A stretch of DNA of 64,000 bases from Gammaproteobacteria bacterium. GTDB lineage: Bacteria > Pseudomonadota > Gammaproteobacteria > Burkholderiales > Gallionellaceae. The DNA lies in assembly GCA_018814405.1 (NCBI GenBank), contig JAHIZO010000006.1, positions 62,001 through 126,000 on the forward strand, in the 5' to 3' direction. Made by a program: the position numbers and the translations under genes. Below the pieces are notes generated by a model. It was not told the DNA's origin and made no database searches. It worked only from the letters and a program-made list of their open reading frames with translations. Positions within the stretch are counted from its first letter, which is position 1, and each line of letters begins with the position of its first letter. Of the stretch, positions 29,258-29,428 are shown in pieces.

Positions 29258-29273
29258 TGGCACGGCGATTGCA
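29258..29273 (+). promoter_or_regulatory. Sigma-54 promoter of the octaheme cytochrome operon
   Basis: TGGCACGGCGATTGCA matches the sigma-54 consensus TGGCACG-N4-TTGCA at every defined position, with correct GG/GC spacing. The transcription start should be near 29284. It faces the ferredoxin-ccoG-like-DUF302-octaheme-cytochrome-b genes and sits beside a divergent sigma-54 activator gene. Confidence 0.9.
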
Positions 29274-29325
29274 TTGTTGCTCACGCCGGCCTGCAGTATT
29301 CCCCTGTGCTGCGGGCACTCCCTGA

Positions 29326-29343
29326 CCGGACGGCTTCGTCCGG
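29326..29343 (+). promoter_or_regulatory. Leader hairpin in the sigma-54 transcript
   Basis: CCGGACG-GCTT-CGTCCGG forms a perfect 7-bp stem with a four-base loop within the untranslated leader. It lies ten bases before the terminator hairpin. With that hairpin it could form part of an attenuator or of a small RNA. Confidence 0.6.
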
Positions 29344-29352
29344 CGGCCCTGA

Positions 29353-29383
29353 CCTGTGGCGCGGTGCGCCACAGGATTTTTTT
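29353..29383 (+). terminator. Intrinsic terminator inside the operon leader
   Basis: CCTGTGGCGC-GGT-GCGCCACAGG is a perfect 10-bp GC-rich stem, followed by A and seven T residues. It lies between the sigma-54 promoter (start about 29284) and the ferredoxin start at 29429. Transcripts should stop here after about 100 nt unless antitermination or readthrough occurs. Confidence 0.85.
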
Positions 29384-29428
29384 AGCCGCAACAACGGACG
29401 GCAACGAACAAGAAACAAGGAGCGAGAG

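Follow-up and report, generated by a model that had tools for sequence, protein, structure and literature searches.

A predicted sigma-54-dependent small RNA beside a divergent PAS-type activator gene in Gallionellaceae

The 64 000-nt stretch of a Gallionellaceae genome analysed here (hereafter the window) carries, between a divergent sigma-54 activator gene (REG) and an operon for a ferredoxin and an octaheme cytochrome, what is probably a sigma-54-dependent small RNA (sRNA) gene that is paired with REG and likely acts in trans through C-rich motifs; the operon would be served by read-through. In this proposal, REG would bind a candidate dyad at 29156-29169 and activate sigma-54 polymerase at 29258-29273; the transcript would start at ~29284 and stop after ~100 nt at a conserved terminator. 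The RNA would most likely act in trans: its unpaired C-rich linker would pair with target mRNAs at their Shine-Dalgarno regions, as would the CUCCC hairpin loop that most relatives have in addition. Polymerases that pass the terminator would run on into the ferredoxin/CcoG/octaheme operon in the window's genome, and a single promoter would thus provide much sRNA and little operon mRNA.

The intergenic region and its predicted RNA

REG (27805-29142, minus strand; the start codon at 29142 is our inferred choice) contains PAS_4, Sigma54_activat and Fis-type HTH (HTH_8) domains according to Pfam, as well as the GAFTGA motif; neither a receiver domain nor an ANTAR domain was found in it by Pfam. 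Its PAS region includes a Cys/His-rich stretch that might bind a metal or an Fe-S cluster. The genes on the other side are on the plus strand and code for a YfhL-type 2[4Fe-4S] ferredoxin (FDX, 29429-29683; NCBIfam NF033683), a CcoG/FixG-like protein (29680-31110; TIGR02745), a DUF302 protein (31107-31706; Pfam), an octaheme tetrathionate reductase-family cytochrome (31669-33405; TIGR04315; its true start may be later) and a cytochrome b561-type membrane protein (33402-34007; Pfam). Elsewhere in the window, an ORF of 1662 residues (22523-27511, plus strand) combines an N-terminal Ser/Thr-kinase-like region with a GGDEF domain at its C terminus.

The -24/-12 promoter, TGGCACGGCGATTGCA (29258-29273, plus strand), matches the pattern TGGCACN5TTGCW without mismatch and is the sole perfect match across the window. 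Matches with up to two mismatches are not enriched there (55 versus 48.2 +/- 7.1 in shuffled sequences). The whole 2.38-Mb genome contains nine perfect matches, as against two for a reversed control pattern, and the chance of finding a perfect match in the ~286-bp intergenic gap is therefore about 1e-4. Another of these perfect sites (L043, G000:C4:208774) lies ~40 nt ahead of an IscA-like gene (family assigned by eye). Upstream of the promoter in the window is the dyad TGCCA-N4-CGGCA (TGCCACATACGGCA, 29156-29169, no strand assigned), a candidate enhancer for REG; among the nine perfect sigma-54 sites of the genome, the window's is the only one with such a dyad within 250 nt.

We infer that the RNA starts at 29284, 12 nt past the -12 GC, and its ~100-nt length is likewise a prediction. 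The segment 29284-29384 (plus strand), for which the covariance models R1 and R2 described below are further evidence, has a folding energy of -57.6 kcal/mol (z -6.0), and its predicted fold consists of three hairpins and an unpaired CACUCCCUGA stretch. Hairpin 1 (29289-29316, plus strand; centroid fold) differs in sequence among copies. It is followed by the linker CUCCCUG (29318-29324, plus strand), unpaired with a probability of 0.96 and a candidate anti-Shine-Dalgarno seed, by hairpin 2 (CCGGACG-GCTT-CGTCCGG, 7 bp; 29326-29343, plus strand), whose loop lacks the CUCCC seen in most relatives, and by the intrinsic terminator (29353-29383, plus strand; terminator scan and alignment). The latter is made of 10 bp, CCTGTGGCGC-GGT-GCGCCACAGG at 29353-29375, then an A and seven T residues (29377-29383). 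Loose terminator-like sites are frequent by chance (17.0 +/- 3.8 in shuffles); among the 28 listed for 24-40 kb, this one is the richest in G-C pairs (8 of 10). The consensus promoter, the hairpin at 29326-29343, the terminator with its seven T residues and the first start codon at 29429 (an ATG) had all been put forward in the original prediction, and each was recovered here at the same coordinates; hairpin 1, the linker and the dyad had not been part of it. The T-run and the ATG are about 45 nt apart. A scan for sigma-70-type promoters listed no site in this interval, and transcription of the operon would thus appear to depend on read-through.

Distribution of the RNA and its linkage to REG

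A scan with the octaheme cytochrome as query gave 39 loci. One of them (L001), whose sequence ends before the leader region, is outside the comparison; in two (L002 and L003) a sigma-54 site is present but is not followed by a terminator within 260 nt. FDX was found in six (L004-L008 and L034), all with a sigma-54 site and a terminator; the motif CUC[CA]CUG, a hairpin and the terminator are common to these six leaders and that of the window. R1, a covariance model of the leader core, was constructed from these 7 sequences with the promoter excluded. At E <= 0.01 it matched 23 of 158 genomes of the window's own family. Judged by context, 19 of these hold genuine copies, in 21 places, and the other 4 are spurious matches. 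All 14 places outside the training set have a sigma-54 site (<=1 mismatch) 42-62 nt upstream of the core. In a sample of the order (399 genomes, E <= 1e-4), R1 matched 10 genomes, of which 5 were known, 3 were new and belong to another family (f15) and 2 were spurious; in a sample of the class (369 genomes) it retrieved the window's own copy only. The order search overlooked diverged copies in two f15 genomes (G335 and G451), and absence of the RNA elsewhere is therefore not proven. A broader model, R2 (26 sequences), detected 21 copies of the RNA in 19 of the 158 own-family genomes, and found it in 6 of 22 f15 genomes as well; the copy in G917, which is part of no model, scored E 6.3e-20. In total, RNAs of this design, ~90-108 nt long, occupy 27 places in the 180 genomes of the two families, and a sigma-54 site with zero or one mismatch precedes all 27.

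Six model matches (L069-L072, L081 and L082) were rejected as spurious, having no sigma-54 site (<=1 mismatch) and neither REG nor FDX, and three others (L075-L077) as matches on the opposite strand due to the palindromic stem. Rfam gave no family at gathering threshold for the whole window or for L004, L005 and L008; two sub-threshold matches (E 0.93 and 7.5) were taken as chance.

The distribution of the RNA largely follows that of REG. Relatives of REG were detected in 50 of the 399 genomes of the order (E <= 1e-120), and the loci of 30 were examined. All ten best (72-100% identical), including the two with a diverged RNA (G335 and G451), are divergently oriented with respect to a sigma-54 site (<=1 mismatch) that is followed by the RNA. 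Close REG orthologues (E < 1e-180) occur in 16 of 158 own-family genomes and 6 of 22 f15 genomes, and the RNA adjoins REG in all 22. Neither a close REG nor the RNA was found in the remaining 139 own-family and 16 f15 genomes. In three genomes (G145, G146 and G154) the RNA is present and REG is represented only by a 55% identical paralogue, which was counted against the sRNA reading. In 19 of 23 copies the dyad, in the general form TGNCA-N3-6-YGRCN, starts 100-103 nt ahead of the promoter; it is elsewhere within 150 nt in three and missing in one (L052). Among the 20 more distant REG relatives (53-67%), 16 have a sigma-54 site (<=1 mismatch) in the first 500 nt and 6 have a cytochrome bd subunit I gene nearby (L095, L097-L099, L101 and L104; Pfam was run on four of the six). 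These six, most of which have a sigma-54 site and not the RNA, possibly represent a wider set of terminal-oxidase activators. R2 found nothing convincing in these 20 loci or in L002, L003 and L047 (one match, E 0.86).

Association with the downstream gene is looser. An intact FDX lies 3' of the RNA in 18 of 21 own-family copies, and a cis role is therefore plausible there. In the others, FDX is shortened (L074), reduced to a remnant with stops (L063/L118) or, in L052, absent, the RNA leading a different octaheme operon. One genome (G155) has kept two RNA copies (L118:6713-7042 and L074:1501-1860), and its ferredoxin copies are decayed or shortened. In another (G124), the genes behind FDX are of the Fe-S assembly and aminotransferase-V (NifS-like) types. 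No FDX was found by tblastn in the stretches examined in f15 (827 bases beyond the RNA in G261 and ~1,500 in G917), and the gene next to the RNA codes for an alpha/beta hydrolase in G365 and a NifX-like protein in G335, and is aat in G451. The comparison supports INDEPENDENCE from the operon: as judged from sequence, the RNA unit appears tied to the REG gene and not to the downstream operon.

Conservation of structure and of unpaired motifs

Mean pairwise identities were calculated over the 18 copies with FDX. They amount to 0.83 for the promoter, 0.39 for the 5' part of the RNA including the hairpin 1 region, 0.71 for the linker and hairpin 2, 0.77 for the terminator, 0.13 from the terminator to the ribosome-binding site and 0.76 for the FDX coding sequence. 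The linker with hairpin 2 and the terminator are thus about as conserved as the FDX coding sequence, whereas the flanks are not; since identity falls to 0.13 after the terminator, the constraint seems to be on the RNA and to end at the terminator. In 26 copies, two-sided changes were observed at 9 of 20 pairs, and pairing dropped from 85.5% to at most 40% when the partners were slid. Covariation (0.168) exceeded that of shuffled alignments (0.128 +/- 0.010; reached by 0 of 500 shuffles, which ignore relatedness). Several results were counted against the sRNA reading: pair types are no more numerous than expected from shuffles (67 of 500 reach the same number), the modelled pairs of hairpin 2, the weaker one, are formed in just 72% of cells, and RNAalifold on its own recovers the terminator only.

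The linker motif CUC[CUA]CUG is present in all 23 copies scanned (three diverged or late f15 copies are outside the scan). It is predicted to be unpaired at >=0.5 in 20 of them and mostly paired in the other three (L005, L068 and L073), and a CUCCC element occupies the loop of hairpin 2 in 16. The three copies with a paired linker were counted against the sRNA reading, as was the lack of the CUCCC loop in the window, in its two nearest relatives (L007 and L053) and in L067 and L068. A duplex search confined to the window yielded no convincing target, with the ferredoxin 38th of 52 in an uninformative ranking by energy.

Alternative roles of the leader and comparison with known systems

With the operon apparently open to polymerase only by way of the terminator, antitermination by a protein or passive metering may occur. 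The original prediction had offered two options, an antitermination step controlling the operon or a short RNA with a role of its own; the second is supported by the conserved unit tied to REG, and no support was found for the first. The first would correspond to a cis-acting attenuator, ANTAR-like or other, in which an RNA-binding protein or a ligand toggles the leader between termination and read-through, giving control of the ferredoxin/octaheme operon at a step past sigma-54 initiation. We consider this unlikely, even with the absence of promoter-like sites between terminator and ORF in the window and the intact FDX behind 18 of 21 own-family copies on its side. Leaders that combine a sigma-54 promoter and an attenuator do exist, and one is present in the window's own genome (L047, G000:C8:117530-117545 and downstream). 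There, a perfect sigma-54 site precedes an ANTAR-type leader with two A1/G4 hexaloop hairpins (stems of 6 and 4), the second overlapping the terminator, ahead of an NMT1-like (ABC binding-protein type) gene. With this leader as positive control, the hexaloop pair was found in none of 23 leaders of the RNA described here; any A1/G4 hexaloop with a stem of at least 3 occurs in 7 of 23, and one with a stem of at least 4 in L005 only. The lack of the pair, together with that of an ANTAR domain in REG, makes ANTAR control of this leader appear unlikely. When the leaders were compared for conserved alternative pairings, as had been suggested earlier, no in-register helix involving the terminator arms was common to more than 7 of 26 copies (the terminator itself is in 26 of 26), in a test that is insensitive to register shifts, since hairpins 1 and 2 score just 7 and 10 of 26 in it. 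An antiterminator energy test with a soft constraint did not discriminate (17.0 kcal/mol for L047 versus 7.0-16.5 for the 23 leaders). The poor conservation from terminator to ribosome-binding site also argues against an attenuator, as do the retention of the RNA in f15 without FDX and its position beside aat in G451.

That the terminator is a fixed throttle, passively reducing operon expression relative to the promoter and releasing a functionless by-product, is quite improbable in our judgement. Such a throttle needs no additional partner, and a strong terminator does stand between promoter and operon, yet it would not require a conserved linker or hairpin 2 (identity 0.71), and the unit persists where the operon differs or has decayed. 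Titration of an RNA-binding protein by the C-rich RNA, instead of pairing with mRNAs, we regard as very improbable: unpaired C-rich elements are present, and the sigma-54-dependent RNAs CrcZ and CrcY are reported in the accessible part of PMC6292655, but there are just one or two short motifs per RNA. An sRNA that probably acts in trans and is paired with REG is therefore the reading we prefer.

The kind of arrangement, a sigma-54-dependent sRNA adjoining its activator, is already known; new here are the family, its activator of PAS type and the presence of an operon behind the terminator. In the literature collection searched, no paper on small RNAs was found for Sideroxydans (a search for Gallionella sRNAs was uninformative). 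Our tentative view is that this may be a new sRNA family in which a PAS-sensing sigma-54 activator and a dedicated anti-Shine-Dalgarno sRNA form a portable two-gene module of iron-oxidizing betaproteobacteria and a related family. It might have an origin separate from that of Qrr, among activators whose more distant relatives directly face cytochrome bd operons, with electron-transfer operons being placed behind a leaky terminator and one promoter serving both sRNA and operon. Provided that the RNA is made, a sigma-54 sensor would be connected with post-transcriptional regulation in lithotrophic iron oxidizers; the module would then be a non-Vibrio example of an activator that has a dedicated sRNA, and a case of an operon placed behind an sRNA terminator.

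The following likenesses and differences refer to the known systems as described in the accessible parts of the cited papers. In the nasF/NasR ANTAR leader, a hairpin and an intrinsic terminator precede the operon (PMC3369936), as they do here, and L047 shows the ANTAR pattern behind a sigma-54 site; the A1/G4 hexaloop pair is, by contrast, missing in this RNA, and an overlapping antiterminator appears to be missing too. ChiZ and IspZ are short RNAs derived from 5'UTRs and with functions of their own (PMC7815308); they are described with a given gene, whereas this RNA retains its activator and swaps the downstream gene. The alpha-r14 sRNAs (NfeR1) have three hairpins, an unpaired C-rich anti-Shine-Dalgarno motif and variable stems, block ribosome-binding sites through these motifs and, for NfeR1, are activated by LsrB and repressed by NtrC (PMC10746234). 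The present RNA resembles them in its three hairpins, C-rich unpaired motif and variable stems. However, alpha-r14 sRNAs carry CCUCCUCCC in all three unpaired regions, an arrangement that alignment and motif scan did not find in this RNA, which has CUC[CUA]CUG instead, plus CUCCC in 16 of 23 copies. CJnc230 of Campylobacter, an RpoN-dependent sRNA (PMC11187230), similarly exposes a single-stranded putative anti-Shine-Dalgarno region between two hairpins; it arises by processing of the flgE mRNA, downstream of the gene, whereas this RNA is predicted to start from a promoter beside the activator. In Vibrionaceae, qrr1 is located 151 bp upstream of luxO and points the opposite way (PMC8043402), and a putative Qrr is opposite luxO in 20 of 21 taxa (PMC10162802). 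As with Qrr1/luxO, the RNA described here would be an sRNA that depends on sigma-54 and whose gene diverges from that of a sigma-54 activator; unlike LuxO, REG contains a PAS domain and shows no receiver domain in Pfam, and unlike Qrr1, the RNA matched no Rfam family at gathering threshold and has an electron-transfer operon behind its terminator.
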